A stretch of DNA of 55,676 bases from assembly GCA_029821875.1 (NCBI GenBank), contig JALGXW010000023.1, positions 1 through 55,676 on the forward strand, read 5' to 3'. Positions within the stretch are counted from its first letter, which is position 1. Every line of letters starts with the position of its first letter. Below, piece by piece: positions 127 to 46,968 of this stretch. The notes below the pieces were generated by a model, which saw nothing but the letters and a program-made list of their open reading frames with translations, made no database searches and had not been told where the DNA came from. This DNA is from Candidatus Hebobacterum abditum. GTDB lineage: Bacteria; Armatimonadota; Hebobacteria; Hebobacterales; Hebobacteraceae. A program made the position numbers and the translations under genes.

Positions 127-187
127 AACAACGACCGACTGGATCAGCAGCGCGGAGACTGCCGGCGGCGCCAGCGTAGGGAACGGA

Positions 188-210
188 CGTTTGTGGGCAC
201 AGAACGGCGC
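188..210 (-). repeat. Diverged, inverted copy of intergenic repeat A
   Basis: Positions 189-210 are the exact reverse complement of 34875-34896, a 22-bp perfect match about 34.7 kb away. Both contain the CACAAAC core of repeat A (plus orientation at 34891-34896). This copy runs opposite to all other copies in the window. Confidence 0.6.
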
Positions 211-18659: not shown

Positions 18660-18758
18660 GACCGTGGGGCGTTGCTAGGGGGTCGTGAGACCAGCCTGAG
18701 GGTCTCCTGAGTCTGCTCCGCTTCCGTCAAGCTGTCCTATCGTCTGAGACCGTTTGTG

Positions 18759-18855
18759 GTGGTCACCTCGCCGTGGAACCGTCCCAGCCTTGCCCTGACG
18801 CGTCCTCTGCTGTATCGTGGGCATTCCATCACGCTGGATGGTGAACCCGCGTGTG
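18759..18855 (+). repeat. Intergenic repeat B, copy B1
   Basis: This copy reads GTGGTCACCTCGCCGTGGAA, CCG, then a CAGCCTTGCCC block, TATCGTGGGCATTCCAT and a stem CCATC/GATGG before GAACCCGCGT. The same blocks occur in the same order at 33235, and the first half at 34793. Confidence 0.8.
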
Positions 18856-33165: not shown

Positions 33166-33234
33166 AGCGTAAGTGGTTAGCCTTCATGGGGCGGACCGAG
33201 GCACGGGCTAAGCAACGCTCTGGGTCTGCGTGTA

Positions 33235-33328
33235 GTGGTTACTTTGCCGTAGAACCGCCCTAGCCTTGCTCAGAAGGCATCTCCTGCTCTATCGTGGGCA
33301 CTCCATTGGCTGGAGGATGAACCCGCGT
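33235..33328 (+). repeat. Intergenic repeat B, copy B2
   Basis: GTGGTTACTTTGCCGTAGAA, CCGCCCTAGCCTTGCTCAGA, then CTCTATCGTGGGCACTCCAT and GAACCCGCGT match B1 block by block. The inner stem is CTCC/GGAG instead of CCATC/GATGG. No A hairpin follows, only a weak GGTCCCAGA. Confidence 0.8.
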
Positions 33329-33520: not shown

Positions 33521-34789
33521 CTAGTCGATGGCCAGGGGCAGCTTCTGCCGGCGATAGACCTGGGACCCCCAGTCGAAGTCCTCAGGGAGGAGGAAGCACC
33601 CACCGCCCCCTGTGGGCAACGAGCGGCCCGAGTGAAGGACACTAAGGATCGCGCGCTGCAGGCTGGTGTCCCGCGGTGCTTGGCTCAGATCGACCGGCAC
33701 GCCGTCGAACACGTTCCGGAGCACGGAGTCATCGCCGATGCCGGTCGGGACGAGATAGACCTCGCGCTGAAAGCGCACGAGGTTCGAGGTCGGCGGAAGC
33801 AGTGACTCGAGACCGGCGTCGAGTATCCACGAGCCGCACGAGAAAGCGGTGAACGGTCGCTCAGGGAAGTGGCGGGGGAAGAAGTCGAGGGCGGAGCGGA
33901 GGGACTCCCCACAGAGCTCGTGCGACATCGGACCGCCGCTGGGGATGTGGATGTGCAGAACGGGGTCGCCCTTGGCGAGCACCAGGCCCCAGTCGACGAG
34001 AGGAAGTCGTACCGTTCGCGGCCGAGCGTGCCCTGTGGGCATGATGGGATTCCCGATGGCTTCGTCATCCGTTAGTTCGAGGCTGGACATCCATGCGCCG
34101 CGGACCTCGCTGCTTCGTGTGACCCCGCCGTCAGGCAGGTAATGCACGCCGTCTTCGCACAGCGCGACGACCGCGCGCGATGTCGTATGCTGAAAGACCC
34201 GGATACGGTGCTCCAACGTCCCGTACTGGAACTGGAAGCGGCCGAGCCGGTAGAGGTCACCGCCAGTGTGGTATCGAAGCCAGGCGACGTTGCCGGGGCT
34301 GAAGCCCCAGCTGTCTGGGCCGCGGTGACCTTCTTCGTTCCCCAACGAGTTCTCGATGTCGAGCAGCGTGTCGCGCGTGACCTCCGGCGGCACTCCATGG
34401 GAACGGTGCAGCGCCAAGACGTCAGGGATGTTAGAGAGCAGCAGCACGAGGTAGAAGGCGCCGGCGTCAGCGTCGAGGGATGCCCCCAAGGTTGGCCAGC
34501 CGCCAATGTCGTCCCACACTGGAGTTCCCGAATGGTAGAGGCGGTAGTGGAAGTGCCACATCAGGCGGGCCAGGTCGGAGCTGTTGGATATCCGCTGAGC
34601 GGCGGCAACAGCGGCCTCGCCGGCCTCTATGGGTAGGTGGGCATCCCGGGATGCCGTGCGTAAGAAGTCCGGGGCAAGGAAGTCGATGTCTCCTGTCGGC
34701 ATGGCTGTCTGCGATAGGTCCCATTCAGGACGAATGGCATCGGCAGATTCAGTGAGGTGCAGGGAGGTCAGGACTTCCTCGAGCGTCAT
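33521..34789 (-). CDS. Acyltransferase-domain protein (NAT_N/GNAT_C type)
   Basis: A 422-residue protein related to two-domain N-acyltransferases (NAT_N plus GNAT_C). The N-terminal helical part contains LYRLGRFQFQYG, close to a signature of this family. The C-terminal part carries LHIHIPSGGPMSHELCGESL and FTAFSCGSWILD, also family hallmarks. The acyl donor and acceptor are unknown. The ATG at 34789 has no Shine-Dalgarno sequence, and repeat B3 begins three bases upstream of it. Either the mRNA is leaderless or the repeat acts as the leader. The gene is alone on the minus strand. Confidence 0.72.
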   Translation of the reverse strand: MTLEEVLTSLHLTESADAIRPEWDLSQTAMPTGDIDFLAPDFLRTASRDAHLPIEAGEAAVAAAQRISNSSDLARLMWHFHYRLYHSGTPVWDDIGGWPTLGASLDADAGAFYLVLLLSNIPDVLALHRSHGVPPEVTRDTLLDIENSLGNEEGHRGPDSWGFSPGNVAWLRYHTGGDLYRLGRFQFQYGTLEHRIRVFQHTTSRAVVALCEDGVHYLPDGGVTRSSEVRGAWMSSLELTDDEAIGNPIMPTGHARPRTVRLPLVDWGLVLAKGDPVLHIHIPSGGPMSHELCGESLRSALDFFPRHFPERPFTAFSCGSWILDAGLESLLPPTSNLVRFQREVYLVPTGIGDDSVLRNVFDGVPVDLSQAPRDTSLQRAILSVLHSGRSLPTGGGGCFLLPEDFDWGSQVYRRQKLPLAID

Positions 34790-34792
34790 GAA

Positions 34793-34842
34793 GTGGTCAC
34801 TTCGCCGTAGAACCGGTTCAGCCTTGCTCAGAAGGCATCCGT
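34793..34842 (+). repeat. Intergenic repeat B, first half (copy B3)
   Basis: GTGGTCACTTCGCCGTAGAA, CCG, then CAGCCTTGCTCAGAAGGCAT match the first half of B2 nearly base for base. The second half is missing, and sequence continues straight into repeat A6. Confidence 0.8.
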
Positions 34843-34849
34843 AGGGTCC

Positions 34850-34905
34850 CAGAACTCACCAGTCAAAGCGGGAAGCGCCGTTCTGTGCCCACAAACTCGT
34901 GTTCT
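34850..34905 (+). repeat. Intergenic repeat A, diverged copy A6 (joined to B3)
   Basis: GGGTCCCAGAACTC opens like A3. The middle differs: no TTTCG hairpin is seen, but CACAAACTCG follows. Positions 34875-34896 are the exact inverse of 189-210. Confidence 0.55.
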
Positions 34906-35177
34906 CTGGTGGTTGCCAGTAGCGCCTGGGGGAGGGTGACAGACGGCAACACCGTGCTGATTCCTAGCAGGATCCGGCTCAGATCTGGCATGATCTGGCC
35001 TGTGTTTCGCAGCCACACGCCAGAGCGGCGATCGGGGTCACCTCGCTTCTCTCCCCCGCAGGACTCATGCGCAGAGGTACTCGAATCTAGCTCCACAGTC
35101 GGCCGCCGTGGCAAGCGGGTGTGCCAATGCTGGCAAACTTGAGAAGGGGGCCATTCGAGGCCGTTCGACAGGCGCGG

Positions 35178-35277
35178 CCGCCACTCCGCCGCTACTGGGC
35201 CGCTACCGGACCGCTACTCCAGACAGGGTCGGGCCGCTACCGATCCGCTGCCAAACCGCTACCGATCCGATGCCCCA
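35178..35277. repeat. 11-bp direct repeat array, exactly phased
   Basis: Units near the consensus CCGCTACCGAT begin at 35178, 35189, 35200, 35211, then 35234, 35245, 35256 and 35267. Spacing is exactly 11 bp except for one degenerate 12-base gap (35222-35233). Examples are CCGCTACTGGG, CCGCTACCGGA, CCGCTACCGAT and CCGCTGCCAAA. Because 11 is not a multiple of three, coding repeats are unlikely. The period is close to one helical turn, as for iterons or recombinase arm sites. Confidence 0.88.
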
Positions 35278-35412
35278 ATCAGCGTCGCCTCGACCATGCA
35301 TCGCGGGCCCCGCGGAGCCGATTCTTCCAGCAATCATGCGGGGAAATGGCCCCTGGCTCACGACGGCCGCTTAGCTGAAGATGCGCGAAGATGCCGCACA
35401 ACCCCCTGAATT

Positions 35413-35445
35413 CCGCTACCGAATCGCTACCTTTCCGCTACCCCT
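35413..35445. repeat. Second block of the 11-bp repeat (three units)
   Basis: CCGCTACCGAA (35413), TCGCTACCTTT (35424) and CCGCTACCCCT (35435) repeat the same unit with the same 11-bp spacing, 146 bp after the last unit of the first block. Confidence 0.85.
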
Positions 35446-35499
35446 GGACCGACAACTCGGCTTACAGGCCCACTCCTCTCTTCTTGGCCAACCTCGCTG

Positions 35500-35559
35500 A
35501 TTCTAGGCAGCAAATCGCGTGGGCGCATAACCGTACATACGTGCATAGGTCCCTAGAAT
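35500..35559. repeat. 8-bp inverted repeat in the recombinase upstream region
   Basis: ATTCTAGG (35500-35507) and CCTAGAAT (35552-35559) are perfect inverted copies 44 bp apart. TAGAAT at 35554-35559 also resembles a -10 box. Function unknown. Confidence 0.4.
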
Positions 35560-35642: not shown

Positions 35643-36605
35643 ATGGCCGGAAGCGCCGTCGATGCAGCCGCCGCACCACCGGCAGTAACCGGGGAAGACC
35701 CTATCACCTTCGACGAGGCCGTGCCGAAGTTCGTTGACTACTTGGCGTCGTACCGCAGCTACTCGCCGTCCACAGTCCGAGCGTACAGTCGCGACCTCCA
35801 CCTGCTACGGGAGTTCCTAAGTGGGGGCAACGGTCATCTGCCCCGCCCCGGTGAGATCACTCGCCAGCAGGTCATCCAGTTCGGGGTGAGCCTCTCGGGG
35901 ATGGCTCCCCTGAGCGTACGCCGCAAGCTGGCCTGCCTGTCCTCCTTCTTCGGCTTCCTGCAGGACATGGGCTACATCCAAGGCAACCCGGCGCGCCGGC
36001 TGCCACTGCCGAAGACCGAACAACTCGTGCCCGTCACGCTCAGCGAGGAGGAGGCACAGCAGCTGGTGGCGGCGGCTGATAGGCCGTGGACTCGCTGTCT
36101 CGTTGTCCTCCTGCTGACAACTGGCATGAGGCGAAGCGAGGCCGTCGACATCACCCTGGAGGATATCGACCTGGCCAACGGGCAGTTGCTCGTGCACGGC
36201 AAGGGATCGAAGGAGCGAACCGTGCCCTTGACCGGGGAGGCGATAGCAGCCATCCGAGACTACCTCAAGCACCGCAGGAAGACCAACTGCCAGCGGCTGT
36301 TCGTGAGCCAGACGGGGGAAGCCTTTCAAGGTCGCATCGTGAACCGTATCCTGAACCGCGTGGTGGCGAAGGCAGGGCTGAAGGGCAGAGGCATTACCCC
36401 ACACGCCCTGCGCCGTACCTTCGCTACTCACCTCATCCGCAACGGCACCGACATCCGGACCGTGCAGGAACTGCTCGGACACTCTGATATCCAGACCACC
36501 GCGCGCTATCTCCACTCAGACACGCGGACGAAGCAGACGGCGGTGGGAAAGCTGAGCAGGCTGCTAGAAGCAGGCGACGGCCCTGAGAGAGCGGATGATC
36601 GCTAG
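35643..36605 (+). CDS. Tyrosine recombinase, XerC/XerD-like
   Basis: A 320-residue recombinase of normal Xer length. The SAM-like N-terminal core-binding domain spans about 20-110 (FVDYLASYRSYSPSTVRAYS). The catalytic domain has all key residues: TTGMRRSEA (R163), HGKGSKERTVPL (K region, 186-196), HALRRTFATH (H254, R257), LLGHSDIQTT (H280) and the nucleophile in ARYLHSD (Y289). AAAGGAGG precedes the ATG. Chromosome-dimer resolution is the usual Xer role, but its isolated position, the 11-bp arrays and the RBS hairpin point to a local recombination system or a self-regulated integrase. No mobile-element cargo is evident next to it. Confidence 0.93.
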   Translation: MAGSAVDAAAAPPAVTGEDPITFDEAVPKFVDYLASYRSYSPSTVRAYSRDLHLLREFLSGGNGHLPRPGEITRQQVIQFGVSLSGMAPLSVRRKLACLSSFFGFLQDMGYIQGNPARRLPLPKTEQLVPVTLSEEEAQQLVAAADRPWTRCLVVLLLTTGMRRSEAVDITLEDIDLANGQLLVHGKGSKERTVPLTGEAIAAIRDYLKHRRKTNCQRLFVSQTGEAFQGRIVNRILNRVVAKAGLKGRGITPHALRRTFATHLIRNGTDIRTVQELLGHSDIQTTARYLHSDTRTKQTAVGKLSRLLEAGDGPERADDR

Positions 36606-36659
36606 GAGACGGACGGGGGAAGTACCGACCTGGTACTGGAATGGCGATCAGCTGTGCCG

Positions 36660-36800
36660 ATGAGCCCGATCCTACTCGGGCTTGCTGGGGTCGCGGTCGG
36701 TCTCGCCGTACGACTTGTGACGTGCGTCGTTAGGATTGCGATTCCGGCTGGCGTAGTGCTGGTCGTCAGCGCTGTCGTCTGGCACCTATTGGGTGGTTAG
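36660..36800 (+). CDS. Possible 46-residue hydrophobic membrane peptide
   Basis: An ATG at 36660 opens a 46-codon frame ending in TAG at 36798-36800. The product is strongly hydrophobic, with GLAGVAVGLAVRLV and IPAGVLVVSAVVWHL as possible membrane segments and two arginines between them. There is no good ribosome site, and no homologue comes to mind. It sits between the recombinase and the thioredoxin-like gene. It may be a real small protein or chance. Confidence 0.35.
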   Translation: MSPILLGLAGVAVGLAVRLVTCVVRIAIPAGVVLVVSAVVWHLLGG

Positions 36801-36861
36801 AAGGAGCGATCTTGACAGGGCGCATGGGTTCTGGAATCCTGCGGTTCAAGGAGAAGCGATC

Positions 36862-38681: not shown

Positions 38682-40409
38682 ATGTCTGAACTGCAGCCGC
38701 AACAAGCCGATCGCGTACACCTCGGTCAGTTGCTGTTGGAGGAGAAGCTGATCAGTCAGCGGCAGCTGGACGAAGCGCTGGCGGTGCAACGCAGCACGGG
38801 CGCGTTCCTGGGAGACACACTTGTCACCCTCGACCATGTCAAGAGCAAAGATGTCGGGCCCATCCTCGCGAGACTGCTGAGAGTGGAGTACGTCGATCCA
38901 AGAGAGGTCGAGGTTGAGGAAGCAGTCATGGACGTGGTGCCGGAGAGCTTCAGCCGACAGCACGGTGTAATGCCTCTTCGGATCGAGGAAGACCGTCTCC
39001 ACGTGGCGATGAACGACCCGCTGAACCTGTCCGTGCTGGACGATCTGAAGCTGATCGCCGGAAAGCCAGTGGTGGCCGCGCTCGCGATGGAGAGAGAGCT
39101 GATGGCCGCGGTCAACACGCACTTTGACTCCCGGCGCCATGCCGAACAGGCGATCAGGGACATCGACGCAGAGAAGGCGGCGAATGGCGCGGCAGTCGAC
39201 GAGCTTAGCACCGAAGAGCTGTGGACGCTGGCTGCGGACGCGCCGGTCGTGCGGCTCGTCAACTCCATCATCCATGGTGCCCTCAACCGCGGAGTCAGCG
39301 ACATCCATCTGGAGCCCCAGCGGGAGGAGACGCGGGTCCGGTACCGCCTGGACGGGCTCTTGTATGATCACATGACGATTCCGAAGCACCATCAGCCGGC
39401 GGTGGTCTCTCGGGTGAAGATCATGTCGCGCATGAACATAGCAGAGAGACGGCTGCCCCAGGATGGGCGCATCGAGGTGGAACACCACGGGAAAGAGTAC
39501 GACCTCCGGGTCTCGACTATGCCCTCGATCTTCGGGGAGAAGGTCGTAATGCGCGTGCTCGACAAGACGTCCACGCGCATGAGCTTCGGGCAACTCGGCT
39601 TCCTGCCAGGGCAGCAGGAGATCTTCGAGTGGCTCGTAGCGAGGCCCTACGGGATGATACTCGTGACTGGGCCCACCGGTTCGGGGAAGAGCACAACTCT
39701 GTACGCGGCGCTGTCGACGATAAACCAGCCCACGAAGAACATCATCACGATCGAAGACCCGGTGGAGTACCAGCTGCAAGGCATAACCCAGACACAAGCG
39801 AACCCGCGGATCGGCATGACCTTCGCCCGGGGCCTGCGGACGATGGTGCGGCAGGACCCGGACGTGATCATGGTGGGCGAGATCAGGGATCTGGAGACCG
39901 CTGAGATCGCCATCAACGCCGCACTCACGGGGCATCTCGTATTCAGTACTCTGCACACGAACGACGCTCCCGGCGCTCTCGTCCGCCTCGGCAACATGGG
40001 GGTAGAGCCATTTCTCATTTCATCCTCAATCATCGGGGTGTTGGCCCAGCGGCTCGTTCGCGTCGTGTGCCTGGCGTGCAAGGAGCTCTACTCACCTTCT
40101 CCCGAGTTCCTTGCGCGCCTGCAGGCCAACGGCGCGGCGCTCCCTGGCGAGGTGAAACTCGCTCGGGGTGCTGGATGCCCGGAGTGCAACCAGCTTGGCT
40201 ACCAGGGGCGCACGGCGGTCTATGAGATCATGAGGATGTCAGATTCACTCCGGGAGGCTGTTCTCCAACAGAGGTCCGCGGTCGCGGTGCGGGAGCTCGC
40301 CCGTGGGGAGGGGATGAGGACGATGAAGGAGAGCGCGCTGGAGAAGGCGGTCGAGGGCGTCACCACAGCGGAGGAGATACTGCGCGTGATCTACGTGGAG
40401 GAGGAGTAG
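38682..40409 (+). CDS. pilB: Type IV pilus assembly ATPase PilB/GspE
   Basis: A 575-residue cytoplasmic motor ATPase. The MshEN-type N-terminal domain (about 10-150) is followed by the ATPase core: Walker A GPTGSGKS (330-337), Asp box IEDPVEYQ (about 358-365), Walker B DVIMVGEIRD and the His box STLHTNDAPGALVRL. A zinc tetra-cysteine module follows (C463, C466, C499, C502), as in GspE/PilB. It powers pilin extrusion. GAGGAG is close to the ATG. It opens the pilus operon, only 7 bp before pilC. No retraction ATPase gene is in the window. Confidence 0.95.
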   Translation: MSELQPQQADRVHLGQLLLEEKLISQRQLDEALAVQRSTGAFLGDTLVTLDHVKSKDVGPILARLLRVEYVDPREVEVEEAVMDVVPESFSRQHGVMPLRIEEDRLHVAMNDPLNLSVLDDLKLIAGKPVVAALAMERELMAAVNTHFDSRRHAEQAIRDIDAEKAANGAAVDELSTEELWTLAADAPVVRLVNSIIHGALNRGVSDIHLEPQREETRVRYRLDGLLYDHMTIPKHHQPAVVSRVKIMSRMNIAERRLPQDGRIEVEHHGKEYDLRVSTMPSIFGEKVVMRVLDKTSTRMSFGQLGFLPGQQEIFEWLVARPYGMILVTGPTGSGKSTTLYAALSTINQPTKNIITIEDPVEYQLQGITQTQANPRIGMTFARGLRTMVRQDPDVIMVGEIRDLETAEIAINAALTGHLVFSTLHTNDAPGALVRLGNMGVEPFLISSSIIGVLAQRLVRVVCLACKELYSPSPEFLARLQANGAALPGEVKLARGAGCPECNQLGYQGRTAVYEIMRMSDSLREAVLQQRSAVAVRELARGEGMRTMKESALEKAVEGVTTAEEILRVIYVEEE

Positions 40410-40416
40410 GGCCCGC

Positions 40417-41631
40417 ATGCCCGTCTACAGCTACACGGCGCGCGACATAGACGGTCAGATCGTGACGGGAAGCAGCGCCGCCGCCGACGAGACCATCATC
40501 CGCCGTGACCTGCGGGAAAACGGCCTGTATGTCGTCTCTCTGGCCGAGCAGATGGAGAGGCGAGGCCTGGCTGACCTGTGGGCGCGTGTCCGGGGCGTGA
40601 AGCTCGGCGATCTGGTGATCTTCAGCCAGCAGTTGTCGACCATGGTGGGCGCCGGGCTTCCGATCCTTGAATGCCTTCACGAGCTGATCGATGGGACCGA
40701 CAGCCTCCCTCTACGCCGCGCTCTCCAGCAGGTCGCGCGGGACATCCAGGGCGGCTCCACCTTCAGCCAGGCCCTCGCGCAGCACCCCAAGATATTCTCT
40801 GAGCTGTTCGTCGCCCTCGTGCATGCAGGCGAGGTCGGCGGCGTCCTTGAGCAGAGCCTCGAGGCCATTGCGGAGAGCCTGGACAAGGAGCAAGAGCTCC
40901 GCGAGAAGGTCAAATCCGCCTTCGTATACCCAGTTGTGGTGCTCCTGGTGGCGGCCGGCGTGGTGACCTTCATGCTGCTCTACATCATCCCGATCTTCGA
41001 GCGGGTGTACGCGCAGTTCAGAGCACAGCTTCCTGCCCCTACGCGGATGCTCATCGCGGTGAGCAACGCCATGACCGAGTACTGGTGGATCGGATTCCTC
41101 GGCCTCATTGGTCTGGTGCTCGGCTTCCGCGCCGTCATCGCGACGGAGCGCGGGGGACGCATATGGGACCGCGTCAAGCTCCGTATACCGTTGCTTGGGA
41201 AGCTGATCCGAAAGATCGTGGTCGCTCGGTTCGTGCGTACCCTCGGCATCCTCCTCGGCGCGGGAGTTCCCATGTTGAGCGCCCTCCGCACGGCTGCCGA
41301 TGTGGCCGCCAACTCGGAGTTCCGCGACGCGATTTCTGGTGTCGCCACAGATGTCACCGAAGGGGCATCGCTGTCGGTGCCGCTGAGAGCCTGCGGCAAG
41401 TTCCCCAACCTTGTGCCGCGTCTGGTGCAGGCCGGCGAGGAATCAGGGGACTTGGACGGCATGCTCCTCAAAGTGGCGCACTTCCTCGACAGGGACATAG
41501 AGTATACGGTGCGGCGCTTGACGACGCTGATGGAGCCCGCGCTCACAGTTGTTCTCGGGGGCATTGTCGGAACGATAGTGGTGTCTCTCTATATGCCCAT
41601 ATTCACCCTGGCCGTGGTCGTTCGACGCTAA
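40417..41631 (+). CDS. pilC: Type IV pilus inner-membrane platform PilC/GspF
   Basis: A 404-residue polytopic membrane protein with two GspF domains (about 70-190 and 270-395). Signatures include FSQQLSTMVGAGLPILECL and HAGEVGGVLEQSLE in the first half, then RFVRTLGILLGAGVPMLSAL and QAGEESGDLDGMLLKVAHFL in the second. Three hydrophobic segments lie near 168-190, 215-235 and 375-400. It anchors the PilB ATPase and helps load pilins. The start is 7 bp after pilB, with GGAGGAG upstream, so the two are translated from one message. Confidence 0.95.
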   Translation: MPVYSYTARDIDGQIVTGSSAAADETIIRRDLRENGLYVVSLAEQMERRGLADLWARVRGVKLGDLVIFSQQLSTMVGAGLPILECLHELIDGTDSLPLRRALQQVARDIQGGSTFSQALAQHPKIFSELFVALVHAGEVGGVLEQSLEAIAESLDKEQELREKVKSAFVYPVVVLLVAAGVVTFMLLYIIPIFERVYAQFRAQLPAPTRMLIAVSNAMTEYWWIGFLGLIGLVLGFRAVIATERGGRIWDRVKLRIPLLGKLIRKIVVARFVRTLGILLGAGVPMLSALRTAADVAANSEFRDAISGVATDVTEGASLSVPLRACGKFPNLVPRLVQAGEESGDLDGMLLKVAHFLDRDIEYTVRRLTTLMEPALTVVLGGIVGTIVVSLYMPIFTLAVVVRR

Positions 41632-41755
41632 TCCCGTTAGAGATCACAATCTAGACAGCCAGGAAGGAGGGATGAAGCGAAGGCTGCTTAGTCGGCGGGA
41701 CGGCTTGAGGAGTTGGGAACAAGGACATAGATCCTTAGCTAGAAGGAGGACGGAG

Positions 41756-42223
41756 ATGCAGTACCTGCGAAAGAGGAGCGGCTTCACTCTGATCGAGTTG
41801 CTGGTGGTGATCTTGATCCTGGCGATCTTGATGGCCATCGCACTGCCGCTCTATCTGCGTGCCGTGAGAGACTCCGAGCGGCAGACCTGCCGCTCCAACA
41901 TGCAGACCATCGCGGTCGCATGTCAGGCCTACAAGGTGAGGAACATAGGCCATTTCTATCCCGGCGTCGCCAGCACGACTGGTCCGCTGGATCTGGATCT
42001 GGACCTGTTAGTTGGGACGACTGACGAGTACGACCTGCAGGCGCTACCTGTGTGCCCGAATGACCTTACACCAGGTGATAGCTACGACGGTAACCTCAAT
42101 GCTGATGGCACGATCACCATCTACTGCCAGACCGATGACGCAGCTGTTGCGACATTCCACAACGAGCTAGGTGTAGACAAGGGGGGCCAACGGGGCTTCA
42201 CCCCGGGGCAAGACTCGAGGTAG
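41756..42223 (+). CDS. Type IV prepilin (GspG/PilA-like)
   Basis: A 155-residue prepilin. I place the start at 41756 (AGGAGG six bases upstream) because it gives a short leader QYLRKRSG before the hydrophobic segment FTLIELLVVILILAILMAIA. The in-frame ATG at 41672 would add 28 residues of odd basic sequence, although it too has a purine-rich site. The peptidase should cut before F. The globular part ends with a Cys pair (CPND, YCQT) that may form a disulphide loop. Its place right after pilC suggests a major or core pilin subunit. Confidence 0.85.
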   Translation: MQYLRKRSGFTLIELLVVILILAILMAIALPLYLRAVRDSERQTCRSNMQTIAVACQAYKVRNIGHFYPGVASTTGPLDLDLDLLVGTTDEYDLQALPVCPNDLTPGDSYDGNLNADGTITIYCQTDDAAVATFHNELGVDKGGQRGFTPGQDSR

Positions 42224-42343
42224 TGCTGACTTGAACATCTGGAGAAGGAGGGGGCCCCACCCGGGGTCCCCTCCCCGCCAGACGAAGAGGGTGACGCGAG
42301 GATGTGGGGACCTGCTATCAGAGATGTGAAAGGGAGGCGGCCG

Positions 42344-43699
42344 GTGGGACACACTGATCGTCGCCGCGGTGGAATGGCCCTCGTACTCGCGCTGGTCGCA
42401 ATCCTCATCATCAGCATACTCCTTGCGGGGAGCCTTCTGCTGAGCGTCTCACATATGTCCCTGAGCAACCTGAACAACAACTACGCCAATGCGCTGAACC
42501 TGGCGGAGGCCGGTGTCAACTGGGAGCTGTGGAAGATCAGCACTGACTTCTTGTCGGCCGACAACAGCCCGGTGACTGTGGAAGTGCCGCCGGACTCCGG
42601 CCGGTCGTTCGAGGTCCACGTGGAGGCCTATCCGGGTGGGGGGGCCTGGGACGGACTGGGTCCCTTCTGGATCATCTCTACCGGGACCGTCTCCGGGGTC
42701 AGCCGAACGGTGCGCGTGGTGGCCCGAGGCTACGGGCTGGCCGGGCTCTACGCGCTCTTCGGGATCGACAGTCTGAACGTCGGCGGCAATGCCACCATCA
42801 ACGGTGCAAGTGGGACGAACGGAACGGTGCAGATCGCAGGCAGCCCTGACATCAATGGGAACTTCCTCTACTGCGGCACGGCAACAGGCGATACCGTGAT
42901 CCCGACCCCGCCGGGAGAGGTGATACACACACCGCTGGCGGAGTCGTTCCCGACGGTCAATGAGCTCGCGAACTTGAGAGCATGGGAGAAGTACGGCGTG
43001 CAAACCTACTTGGGGATCGACTTCTTCTCCACCAGCGAGGGAGGCGTGCCATACAATGACAACGCGAGCATCGTGGACACGGCAGGCACGCCGATCAGCA
43101 TCACGGCCTACCGTATCGGGCCTCAGACCTTCTTGCAGGCCGATACCGATGACAACCCCTATCTCGAGGACGGCATCACTCCGAATCCCCTGTACGGCAA
43201 ACGCGTGATCGTTCTTGGGCCGGGGGACTACTACTTCGAGAGCTTCGACGTGCAGGGCTCCAACGGGATCAAGATCGACGACTCAGAGGGAATTGTCAAC
43301 ATCTGGCTCGGGCCCTCCGGGGGCTCGGGCTCGGCCGACATCATAAACGGCAATTGCCTCTTCTTCACCAGCCAGGACCCCAGCCACTGCAACATCTACC
43401 AGGGCTCCAAGCGAAGCATCACGCTGACCGGAACGATGGATATGTATGCGAACGTCTACGCCTACAACGGCCCCGACGGCTCGGGCGACTACTACGGACT
43501 CATCGATATCATCGGCGATGGGAACATCTGGGGCTCGGTGATAGGCTACGATGTTCGGAAGGCCACGGGGAGCGCCACAATCAACTTCCCGAGCTCAGGT
43601 GGCACCGGTCCTGGTGGGACAGGGCCCGGGCCGGCCCCGGGCGAGCCGATCCTCTTCTACGGCTTCGACCGAAGTTGGGAGGAGGTGGACGCGCTATGA
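42344..43699 (+). CDS. PilX-like pilus protein with large beta-helix-like domain
   Basis: A 451-residue protein when started at a GTG (42344) with GGGAGG six bases upstream; an ATG at 42302 would add 14 residues. The N-terminus RRRGGMALVLALVAILIISIL is PilX-like, without a normal GFTLIE site. A short conserved membrane-proximal region (ALNLAEAGVNWELWKI) follows. The large remainder is Gly/Asn-rich with repeated INGN, GSADIINGN and DGNIWGSVIG segments, like the DUF7305-type beta-helix domain of pilus-tip proteins. Its stop overlaps the next start by ATGA, so translation is coupled. Confidence 0.78.
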   Translation: MGHTDRRRGGMALVLALVAILIISILLAGSLLLSVSHMSLSNLNNNYANALNLAEAGVNWELWKISTDFLSADNSPVTVEVPPDSGRSFEVHVEAYPGGGAWDGLGPFWIISTGTVSGVSRTVRVVARGYGLAGLYALFGIDSLNVGGNATINGASGTNGTVQIAGSPDINGNFLYCGTATGDTVIPTPPGEVIHTPLAESFPTVNELANLRAWEKYGVQTYLGIDFFSTSEGGVPYNDNASIVDTAGTPISITAYRIGPQTFLQADTDDNPYLEDGITPNPLYGKRVIVLGPGDYYFESFDVQGSNGIKIDDSEGIVNIWLGPSGGSGSADIINGNCLFFTSQDPSHCNIYQGSKRSITLTGTMDMYANVYAYNGPDGSGDYYGLIDIIGDGNIWGSVIGYDVRKATGSATINFPSSGGTGPGGTGPGPAPGEPILFYGFDRSWEEVDAL

Positions 43700-44106
43700 G
43701 ACGCCGAGGCCTGACGTTGATCGAGTTGCTAGTGGCGCTGTTGCTGATCGGGGTAGCAGTGGCCGGACTGGTCGCGCTGTGGCCCTTCGGGTTCACGATG
43801 ACACGCCTGTCACAGGACTTGGGCGTCGGGTATAACGTGGCTCGCCAGGAAATGGAGCGGGCGAAGAACATCGGGTATCTGGTATTGCCCGAGGCCAGTT
43901 GGACGGCCGGATACGACGGGCTGGGCAATCCGACGGCAGACGAGGACCCTCACTACACTGCAACGGCCAGTGTGACGACGATTCCCGACGAAGCCGGCGA
44001 GGTGCACTCTCGGTGTCTGCGTGTCTTCTACGTTCGGGTGGTTGCCCGAGACATGACCGATGCGGTGTTCGAGACCACTGTGTACTTCGCGCGAGGCGGC
44101 ATATGA
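43696..44106 (+). CDS. Minor pilin, PilV-like
   Basis: A 136-residue prepilin. The basic leader RRRG is followed by LTLIELLVALLLIGVAVAGL, so the peptidase site has Leu at +1, as in several minor pilins, and Glu at +5. The rest is short, with few recognisable features (FTMTRLSQDL, YFARGGI). Its ATG overlaps the stop of the PilX-like gene and its own stop overlaps the PilW-like start. This tight packing of three minor-pilin genes is typical of type IV pilus tip (priming) complexes. Confidence 0.8.
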   Translation: MRRRGLTLIELLVALLLIGVAVAGLVALWPFGFTMTRLSQDLGVGYNVARQEMERAKNIGYLVLPEASWTAGYDGLGNPTADEDPHYTATASVTTIPDEAGEVHSRCLRVFYVRVVARDMTDAVFETTVYFARGGI

Positions 44107-44648
44107 CGTCGAGGGCCCTGCGAGGCCCGGTCCTGGGGTGGCACGGATCGGGGGCCGGGCTGACACTTGTGGAGGTGTTGGTCGCGTCGTTGGTTCTCCT
44201 TCTGCTGCTTGCCGGGGGGGCGCAACTCCTTGCCGGATCCTGGCAGTCTCAGGAGACGGTGACCGGGCAGAACGAAGTCCAGAAGCGCGCGCAGCAGGCT
44301 GCGGATGCGGTAATAGACCCCCTTCGGGGAGCGGCCGGAGTGCAGTATGGGGAGCCCTCCCGCGTGACGTGCTTCTTCGCGAATGACAACACCACGACGT
44401 ACTACCTGGCAGACGGGGAGCTGCGGAGAGACACCTACGATGCCGGGACCGGGACGACAGTCCTCGGTTATGTGGTCTGCCGGGACGTGACGGACCTCAG
44501 CTTCGGGTACTATAGACGAGCAGGCAGTGTCTGGGCAGAGGCGGCGAGCGCAAGTCTGGCCGAGTCGCTGCTGGTCTCTGTCACAGTGTCCGAAGAGAAG
44601 TACCAAGCAACTCAGACATCCCTGGTGAAGTTCCGCAACAAGGTGTAG
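44103..44648 (+). CDS. Minor pilin, PilW-like
   Basis: A 181-residue prepilin with an unusually long leader of about 18 residues before GLTLVEVLVASLVLLLLLAG (Leu at +1, Glu at +5). PilW-like features are NEVQKRAQQAADAV after the membrane segment and a C-terminal beta region with SFGYYRRAGSVW. Start overlaps the previous stop by four bases. It completes the minor-pilin trio. Confidence 0.78.
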   Translation: MTSRALRGPVLGWHGSGAGLTLVEVLVASLVLLLLLAGGAQLLAGSWQSQETVTGQNEVQKRAQQAADAVIDPLRGAAGVQYGEPSRVTCFFANDNTTTYYLADGELRRDTYDAGTGTTVLGYVVCRDVTDLSFGYYRRAGSVWAEAASASLAESLLVSVTVSEEKYQATQTSLVKFRNKV

Positions 44649-44680
44649 TCTGGCTCGACCGACGGTGGCAGGAGAAGTAG

Positions 44681-46300
44681 ATGGCCTCACGGGTCGGCAT
44701 TGGCCTCGATATCAGCGACGATCAGATCCGCGCGGTGCTATTGCGACGTACTCGACACGGCGTGGAGCTTGAGCGACTCGGATCCACGCCAACACCGCGG
44801 GGTGCTGTAAGCGGCGGCAGTGTGCACGACCCGCGGCTTCTAGCGGCAGGCATCCGGCAGTTGCTGAGGGACAACGACATCCGGGGATCAGGGCTTGTGG
44901 TCGGCCTGTCCGGGAGGGCCGCGGTCTTCCGGTCACTGCAACTCCCTAAGATGCGGGAAGATGAGCTGCGCGCGGTCGTCGCCGGCGAGATGGAGCACTA
45001 CCGGATGGTGCCGACAGGACAGAGCACCTTCGACTTCTTCCCCCTGGGGGACCCGGACGAGGAACAGCTACAGAACCGGCTCTTGCTGGCGGCAGCGGAC
45101 CGGACCGTGGTGGACCGCCATCGCGAGGCCCTACGCTTGGCGGGAAGGCACATGATCGCGCTGGAGCCCGCTCTGCCGGCCTTCTGCCGCGCGGCGTTCC
45201 CCTTCGTCAACGAGGGAGGAGCGGCCCTGATCGGAGTGAGCGCCCGGACGACAGAACTCGCCGTGTTCAGCGGTGGCACGCTGTCCTACTCTCGCCAGAT
45301 AGATACTGGATCGCTCGATCTCCTCGAGAGGGGGACGGCCGGCGCGCCGCCCCCAGCGCAGGACCTGGGGCCGCAGCAAGAGCCTCCCGGGGATGGGCCG
45401 CAGCTAACGCAGGTGGCATCGGGCGAGGTCGACATGGGATCCCTCGCCTTCGAACTCGAACGCTCGCTCGACTACTATCACCGCGAGATGCCCGCGAGTT
45501 CACAGGTCGAGCGCCTCGTCCTCTGCGGGGAGATTGACCGGCTCGAAGGCCTGGACGACTACCTGGCTGACAGCCTGCGACTGCCGGTATCTGTCTGCCA
45601 GCCATTTGAACACATGCAGGTTCGCGACGCCGAAGTCACTCGTGCGAAGCTGGCCCGTGCTGGCCCCTCGTTCGCCTGCGCCACCGGCCTGGCGCTTCAC
45701 GCCATGGGTGAGGTCCCGGAGGTGTCGACTCTCGACCTGTCCGACACTGGACGGGAGAGTCGGCTCTCGAAGATAGCTCCGAAGTGGCTCTCAGGATCGC
45801 TCATCCTCTCGATCGTGGTGGTCATTGCTGCTCTGCTCATCTCGCTTGTTGTCGGGCGGGTGCTCTCAGCACGGAAGCAGGCCCTGGCTGCGGCTCAGGT
45901 CGAGCTGGAACGGGTAGCGCAGCTCGAGCGAGAGCGCACCAAGGCCGCGCGCCGGGCACGGGAGGCCATCACGCTCGTCGAGCTGCGCGGCCTGCCCTGG
46001 TCCGATATTCTGTTCCAGGTGTCGGCGTTCATGCCCGACGGAGTGTGGGTCACCAACGTGCGCACTGAGCGCGGCGATATGCTGTCGCTGGACGGGACGG
46101 CCCTCTCGCCCGATGCGGTCGCCGATCTGATGGAGTATCTCATTGAGGCGCCGCTGTTCGCGATGCCGCGTATGATCCAGATGCGGAAGGGGAGTGTGGG
46201 CCGGACGCCTGTCGTTCGGTACACGATAAAGGCCAGAGTGGTGCCTCCTCGCAAGCAGCCGGAGCCGTCGGCAAATCCGTCGGGCCCAGGAGCGAGGTGA
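44681..46300 (+). CDS. pilM-pilN: Fused PilM-PilN assembly protein
   Basis: A 539-residue protein that joins two proteins usually made separately. Residues 1-345 are the actin-like PilM fold: VGIGLDISDDQIRAV start, LVVGLSGRAAVFRSLQLP and LERSLDYYHREMPASS. Residues about 346-539 are PilN: a single membrane helix (SGSLILSIVVVIAALLISLV, 371-390), a coiled coil (398-430) and the small C-terminal domain (DILFQVSAFMPDGVWVTNV). Because PilM binds the cytoplasmic tail of PilN, the fusion hard-wires the partners, with PilM inside and PilN facing the periplasm. AGGAG lies upstream of the ATG. The stop overlaps the pilO start. Confidence 0.85.
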   Translation: MASRVGIGLDISDDQIRAVLLRRTRHGVELERLGSTPTPRGAVSGGSVHDPRLLAAGIRQLLRDNDIRGSGLVVGLSGRAAVFRSLQLPKMREDELRAVVAGEMEHYRMVPTGQSTFDFFPLGDPDEEQLQNRLLLAAADRTVVDRHREALRLAGRHMIALEPALPAFCRAAFPFVNEGGAALIGVSARTTELAVFSGGTLSYSRQIDTGSLDLLERGTAGAPPPAQDLGPQQEPPGDGPQLTQVASGEVDMGSLAFELERSLDYYHREMPASSQVERLVLCGEIDRLEGLDDYLADSLRLPVSVCQPFEHMQVRDAEVTRAKLARAGPSFACATGLALHAMGEVPEVSTLDLSDTGRESRLSKIAPKWLSGSLILSIVVVIAALLISLVVGRVLSARKQALAAAQVELERVAQLERERTKAARRAREAITLVELRGLPWSDILFQVSAFMPDGVWVTNVRTERGDMLSLDGTALSPDAVADLMEYLIEAPLFAMPRMIQMRKGSVGRTPVVRYTIKARVVPPRKQPEPSANPSGPGAR

Positions 46301-46968
46301 TGAGCATCGCGACGCTCAGGCCTCAGACTCAGATCGCCCTTGCAATCATCGTGCCGATCTGCTGCTTCGCGCTCGGCGCGATCCTGGTCTGGCCTCCCGT
46401 GTCCGGACTCAACACGGTCAAGCAGGACCTCGAGAGCACGCAGCAGGCCATTGTGGAGAAGCAGAAGATCATTGAGGAGGCCGAGGCGGCAGCTGCGGGA
46501 AGGCCGTTGGCGCTGGCCGTCGCGGCTCGCGAGGAGCAGGAGCCAATCGACTTCCTCAGGCAGTTCTCCGCCTTGGTTGCGGAGAGCGGCGCCACCCTCG
46601 TTTCGGTGCGCGCCACGAAGCTGCCTCCCATTCGGGCTCCGGGCGCCCAGCCGGCCAAGAAGAGTGCTTCTCCGCAACGAGGTCAGACAGGTGGTGCCAC
46701 GCCGGCCCCTGTCGGCGGACAGCGCCCCGTGTTGCCAGCCACGGTCAGCGAACTCAACGATCAGGTGACCGTTAACGGGACGTTTGGATCCATACTTTCC
46801 CTGCTGGTCCGGATTGAGACCTTCGAGCGGATACTGAGCGTCAGTAGATGCCGTGTCACGGCCGGGACCAGAGGCGGATATCCGCGACTGAGCGCCGTCT
46901 TCACGCTGAGCCGGTTCGTTGCGCTGCCAGAGTCGCAGATCCCGCCGGAGACTACAGAACGGCGTTGA
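46300..46968 (+). CDS. PilO-like pilus alignment protein
   Basis: A 222-residue bitopic protein. A membrane helix near 10-31 (IALAIIVPICCFALGAILVW) is followed by a coiled coil (KQDLESTQQAIVEKQKII) and a periplasmic alpha/beta domain with a long Pro/Gly-rich insertion (about 110-145). PilO pairs with PilN and passes force to PilP. ATG 46300 shares its A with the pilMN stop (TGATG) and has AGGAG seven bases upstream. Position supports the call more than sequence does. The 3' end overlaps 17 bp of an opposite-strand gene. Confidence 0.75.
   Translation: MSIATLRPQTQIALAIIVPICCFALGAILVWPPVSGLNTVKQDLESTQQAIVEKQKIIEEAEAAAAGRPLALAVAAREEQEPIDFLRQFSALVAESGATLVSVRATKLPPIRAPGAQPAKKSASPQRGQTGGATPAPVGGQRPVLPATVSELNDQVTVNGTFGSILSLLVRIETFERILSVSRCRVTAGTRGGYPRLSAVFTLSRFVALPESQIPPETTERR

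Follow-up and report, generated by a model that had tools for sequence, protein, structure and literature searches.

The window, meaning the whole 55,676-nucleotide stretch analysed here, is contig C12 of a 4.3-Mb genome (G000) from the Hebobacteria, an Armatimonadota group described from marine sediment (PMC10290634). It carries a gene (int; 35643..36605) for a 320-residue, Xer-like tyrosine recombinase, preceded by a phased array of direct repeats, a predicted recombination core and a conserved box, all on the + strand. The surrounding genes are ordinary ones: glycoside hydrolases, a sulfatase and type IV pilus genes, the last in a type IV pilus or type II secretion-like cluster (38682-46968; ATPase, GspF-like protein, pilins, PilM/PilN) whose ATPase has relatives at only ~50% in a sister genome of the same genus, G001. 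Neither an acyltransferase gene (33521-34789) nor a close version of this ATPase was found in G001, and a cellulase and a 3.5-kb heparinase block have 88-91% counterparts elsewhere. Gene content on both sides of the module thus differs from that of the sister genome. Other comparisons involve one further genus (G007) and two related genera (G003 and G005); the assemblies are fragmented, with breaks common at repeats such as the array-core-int modules described below.

An array in fixed register with a recombination core

The array comprises 11 units of 11 bp, each with the consensus YCGCYACY followed by three spacer bases. Run 1a (35178..35221) has four units, starting at 35178, 35189, 35200 and 35211, or -278, -267, -256 and -245 relative to CTCGGC in the core. 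Extra bases at 35222..35233, conserved in length in full copies, give a 23-bp step (35211 to 35234) to run 1b (35234..35277), whose four units start at 35234, 35245, 35256 and 35267 (-222, -211, -200 and -189). A spacer (35278..35412) of poorly conserved sequence (69% pairwise identity) and fixed length, 146 bp unit to unit (35267 to 35413) or ~14 helix turns, then leads to block 2 (35413..35445), with three units at 35413, 35424 and 35435 (-43, -32 and -21). In the window copy the closing unit of the second run (1b), CCGATGCCCCA, is degenerate, although most homologues have a good one there. A preliminary description of this DNA had placed two blocks with exact 11-bp spacing upstream of a tyrosine recombinase; position, strand and the count of 11 units all hold, although the units fall into three runs (4+4+3), not two unbroken blocks. 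Repeats in direct orientation, one turn apart on a single helix face, are what a winged-helix RDF or PhoB-type array would present.

Nine units lie within one mismatch of CGCTACC, and six neighbouring pairs are spaced at exactly 11 bp, compared with means of 1.4 units and 0.006 pairs (maxima 6 and 1) in 1000 dinucleotide shuffles of the region, a test that is somewhat generous in that the motif derives from the very sequence under test. A lag test that uses no motif gives weaker support, with 8 of 1000 shuffles reaching the observed value. The pattern CCGCTAC-N4-CCGCTAC occurs at a single place in the whole 4.3-Mb genome, this array, and a search of both strands found no other 11-bp motif pairs in the window. 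The only ORFs that cross the region are short, overlapping ones of 85-88 aa.

Stronger proof than the shuffles is the conservation of the array in separate copies. The recombinase has its closest homologues (89-91% identity) in G001, in three copies that all carry the array, so the refuting case named in the preliminary description, homologues that always lack the array, fails for close homologues. A fourth array-core in G001 (C405) has lost its recombinase. Five copies from two species align nearly gap-free over array and core, and unit positions relative to the core are identical wherever a unit is recognized, some units being degenerate in some copies. The single G007 copy has block 2 at the same three positions, block 1 shifted by 1 bp, and then a recombinase start; partial or decayed arrays occur in G003 (C184 and C205), G005 (C167) and another genome, G002. 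Identity between copies is 84% at unit positions 1-8, 71% in the spacers, 69% in the inter-block DNA and 95% in the core, such that the unit positions are kept far better than spacers and inter-block DNA, as for serial, putative binding sites. The array is absent from the loci of distant homologues and of the phylum's other tyrosine recombinases, one chance pair aside. Array, core and recombinase form one module of fixed geometry.

The module's left segment (34875..35177, +) is common to the G001 copies C78, C418 and C405 and, more weakly, to G003 C205. Its first ~25 bp (GCGCCGTTCTGTGCCCACAAACTC; also given as GCGCCGTTCTGTGCCCACAAAC) occur alone elsewhere, at 184-210 (-) of the window and in contigs C7, C53 and C1 of the same genome; the window copy forms an inverted repeat, GGGCACAGA-CGCGCCGT-TCTGTGCCC. 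Between core and recombinase lies the conserved box GGCAGCAAATCGCGTGGGCGCATAACC (35506..35532), a possible right arm or promoter region, and the core-to-int distance varies by ~15 bp between copies. The right border falls at 36554..36804 (+): homology of most copies stops at 36553-36576, and a fragment on G000 C87 shares sequence up to 36804. Module fragments also lie, in opposite orientations, just upstream of a MORN-repeat gene in G000 (the int 3' end; L094 5050-5365) and G003 (block 2 and core; L087 8441-8573). A dispersed ~100-bp repeat, TAGTGGTCACTTCGCCGTAG ... GGAGGATGAACCC, recurs at 18755-18852, 33231-33328 and 34789-34839 of the window and in many copies in G001 and G003; two of the window copies bracket the acyltransferase gene (33521-34789).

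The core, the RNase P RNA gene and the recombinase

The array ends directly before ACTCGGCTTACAGGCCCACTCC, the 3' end of RNase P RNA (rnpB), which occupies 35454-35476 of the window. The stretch to the right of block 2, GACAACTCGGCTTACAGGCCCACTCCTC, also closes the full RNase P RNA genes of G003 and G005, both complete (Rfam RF00010, 289 and 282 bits) and ending at the core. In these two related genera a homologous recombinase lies downstream of rnpB (G003 C239 and G005 C157, the latter after hicBA), so that an intact target gene abuts the integrase end, as at an attL. The core therefore matches rnpB, and rnpB-core-recombinase junctions exist in both genera. Neither junction has the array, which is what one would predict for an array that is part of the other arm.

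Spanning this match, the predicted recombination core is GACAACTCGGC-TTACAG-GCCCACTCCTC (35451..35478, +), an 11-6-11 arrangement. The inverted repeat around TTACAG is the best-scoring (tied) Xer-like geometry in the window core, and the same TTACAG-centred geometry, with shorter arms, is best in the rnpB of G001. The geometry is weak: only about two thirds of arm positions pair (7/11), and G007 scores other placements higher. Variable core bases often match the host's own rnpB, with TTATCG in G005 and TTACAG in both the rnpB and two of the four module copies of G001, but the match does not extend to every copy, the overlap bases of G001 C78 and C405 differing from G001 rnpB.

An intact rnpB is absent from the assembly of the window's own genome. 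On its contig C58, two short RNase P RNA 3' fragments (39 and 34 bits; L092 6539-6687 and 8304-8440) flank a hemA-like ORF, and may be scars left by past insertions. Downstream of rnpB in G001, and likewise in another genome, G012, comes the N-terminus of another tyrosine recombinase, whose gene starts 130-190 bp from rnpB (G001 C10, L084 5318-5464; G012, L106 from 2099). Among the lineage genomes with a full-length rnpB, two thus have the recombinase studied here just downstream and two a different one.

The recombinase itself has core-binding (residues 29-107) and catalytic (133-294) domains only; the core-binding domain begins at residue 29, and an N-terminal arm-binding domain of the lambda/Tn916 type is absent, which rules out a lambda-type arm-binding integrase. 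It also falls below the curated equivalog cut-offs for XerC (236 against 335 bits) and XerD (212 against 330), which excludes a housekeeping XerC/XerD, and the genome has other Xer-like genes. Its score against TIGR02249 (131 against 265 bits) likewise excludes an integron integrase. The nearest solved structures are XerD, XerA and an archaeal XerC-like protein; the predicted model reaches a mean pLDDT of 66.7, a moderate quality, and has low confidence at the N-terminus (residues 1-18). The gene is under purifying selection (dN 0.034, dS 0.44).

Cargo and neighbours differ among the related loci. The rnpB locus of G005 C157 (L091 6500-20000, L176 1-8700) holds rnpB, hicBA, the recombinase, an Avs-like STAND/HEAT gene, HmaC, HmaB and HmaA, and by its predicted content looks like a defence island because an Avs-like STAND protein and HmaC, HmaB and HmaA lie beyond the recombinase, cargo of a kind typical for islands. 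The four G001 copies have unrelated flanks, and the decayed copy at G001 C405 shares its neighbours with G003 C205, an alpha-L-fucosidase and an SDR whose proteins are 95-96% identical between the two genera. Unrelated neighbours on the one hand and shared fucosidase-SDR flanks on the other indicate that modules can persist away from rnpB.

What the array probably does

We consider it probable that the array serves as the left arm of an attP-like site, belonging to a family of integrative elements that targets the 3' end of rnpB. In this respect there is good support for the preliminary suggestion of an undescribed element's arm-site array at its recombination site: the units stand in exact register to an rnpB-matching core, and in relatives with the same recombinase that core is joined to rnpB. 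We infer a circular form, strand exchange, an accessory protein and directionality as follows. On the circular element, proteins would occupy the 11 units as neighbours along one helix face, and the bound arm would fold onto the core, providing synapsis and directionality for the Xer-like recombinase. Strand exchange within the core would join the element to rnpB, which would stay whole, and integration would set int beside rnpB, while the array would end up at the opposite end (attR), remote from the integrase. Since the recombinase has no arm-binding domain, array binding by the enzyme itself is doubtful, and the reader of the array is most likely a separate protein, perhaps a winged-helix or similar accessory or excision factor encoded by host or element. 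The 11-bp, one-face phasing suits head-to-tail binding. By analogy, the best precedent for such a putative array-binding protein is offered by winged-helix factors in which each monomer covers roughly one turn, RdfS and BldC among them (PMC11963761).

The module works like an RNA-gene-targeting integrative element and displays most of its testable features, excepting attR: no clean attR, with array and core joined to DNA downstream of rnpB, was found in these fragmented assemblies. Array-core loci without a recombinase keep the right-hand box wholly or partly and so look like decayed modules; G003 C184, considered as a clean attR, was rejected on this ground. Against the attP-arm reading stand the copies that lie beside unrelated genes, the lack of an intact rnpB in the assembly of the window's own genome, and the overlap bases of C78 and C405, which differ from G001 rnpB. 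In addition, an integrated element would not normally present an intact attP-like module amid ordinary genes on a contig. Three explanations are left for this: islands in tandem at rnpB, where the inner junctions would have exactly this appearance; a small module that occurs dispersed; or an element captured as a circle or out of its proper place. The window is not a circular contig, as its ends do not overlap.

The second of these can be put more generally. The 1.7-kb unit from 34875 to ~36576 could be a small, dispersed, formerly mobile unit with an internal array-core-int, the copies at rnpB being special cases. This is a serious contender that we nevertheless think unlikely to be right. 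Four G001 copies sit in unrelated flanks, four copies share their left start base and most stop near the int stop codon, fragments lie elsewhere in G000, and flanking genes are common to G001 C405 and G003 C205. Yet recombination at the core cannot move the unit as a whole, because the core lies inside it; no target duplication was seen; the left border of copy C39 differs; and G005 has large cargo after int at rnpB. An empty-site comparison shows G000 C53 sharing the left flank of G001 C418 up to GCGCCGTTCTG-GCCCACAAAC; because other DNA follows there and the right junction was not found, we make no claim of transposition or of a target site from the left border. The small-unit reading is about how large the mobile unit is, and an att-arm role for the array can hold alongside it.

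It is improbable, in our estimate, that the array serves mainly in transcriptional control, with a head-to-tail regulator of the OmpR/PhoB, SARP or BldC type acting on the recombinase gene. Such regulators use direct repeats of about one turn, and a heptamer plus a 4-bp spacer, as found here at 11-bp steps upstream of int, is their classic layout. RdfS, moreover, binds att DNA and promoter DNA alike (PMC11963761). However, the register of the array is fixed to the core and not to the int start, which shifts by the ~15 bp noted above, the nearest unit is ~200 bp from the recombinase start codon, and no sigma-70-like promoter was found (a weak test). The int genes at rnpB are intact without the array, which is therefore not an obligatory part of the int promoter.

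The preliminary description had also offered iterons, and one-turn direct repeats do resemble them, but replication iterons of a plasmid or phage-like element are very improbable: no replication initiator was found among the main ORFs of the 55.7-kb contig, which, as noted, ends without overlap, array and flank have no match in phage and plasmid collections, and the heptamer array is not enriched in IMG/VR. There, six contigs match three phased units, against 4, 17 and 4 for shuffled heptamers, and we rejected the idea that the array is widely conserved in viruses. No relatives of the recombinase were found in viral contigs, and matches in the phage collection are all below 60% identity.

Relation to known elements

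The attP-arm reading places the module near several known systems. Integrative elements and genomic islands at the 3' ends of tRNA or tmRNA genes have been catalogued in the Islander set (PMC4383910). Shared with them are a recombinase beside its target, an element that carries the 3' end of the RNA gene while the gene stays whole, and defence cargo; the target here, unlike theirs, is rnpB. Xer sites such as cer and psi have a ~11-6-11 core with an accessory region of ~200 bp on one side, where ArgR or ArcA acts with PepA, and serve plasmid dimer resolution. An Xer-like recombinase, a ~11-6-11 core and a one-sided accessory region recur in the window, but no such phased array is known from cer or psi. 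The attP of ICEMlSymR7A, recognized by IntS, spans 283 bp and has several arm sites beside the integrase, and its winged-helix RDF, RdfS, covers ~10 bp per monomer (PMC11963761). The likeness lies in these arm sites and in that footprint; in ICEMlSymR7A, however, five arm motifs are taken as integrase sites, whereas here there are 11 units in strict 11-bp steps, no arm-binding domain and no RDF identified. Finally, the Int of mycobacteriophage Brujita is characterized in PMC8138268, on the authority of Lunt and Hatfull 2016, as simple, arm-less and directionless. On that characterization, both enzymes have core-binding and catalytic domains only and act on mobile elements, but a conserved arm array flanks the core here.

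The literature searched holds no description of an rnpB-targeting family, which is no proof of absence. We put forward, tentatively and as somewhat less than an even prospect, that this is an undescribed rnpB-targeting family in which an arm-less, Xer-like recombinase would be made directional by a separate protein filament on the 11-unit array, the arm function having moved off the integrase. At the level of the lineage, rnpB may be an insertion hotspot. Most tyrosine-recombinase mobile elements depend on an arm-binding domain of the integrase, and simple recombinases are a minority (PMC8138268); here a simple recombinase goes with a large arm array in strict phase, which gives a way to look for the protein that reads it and to test candidates.
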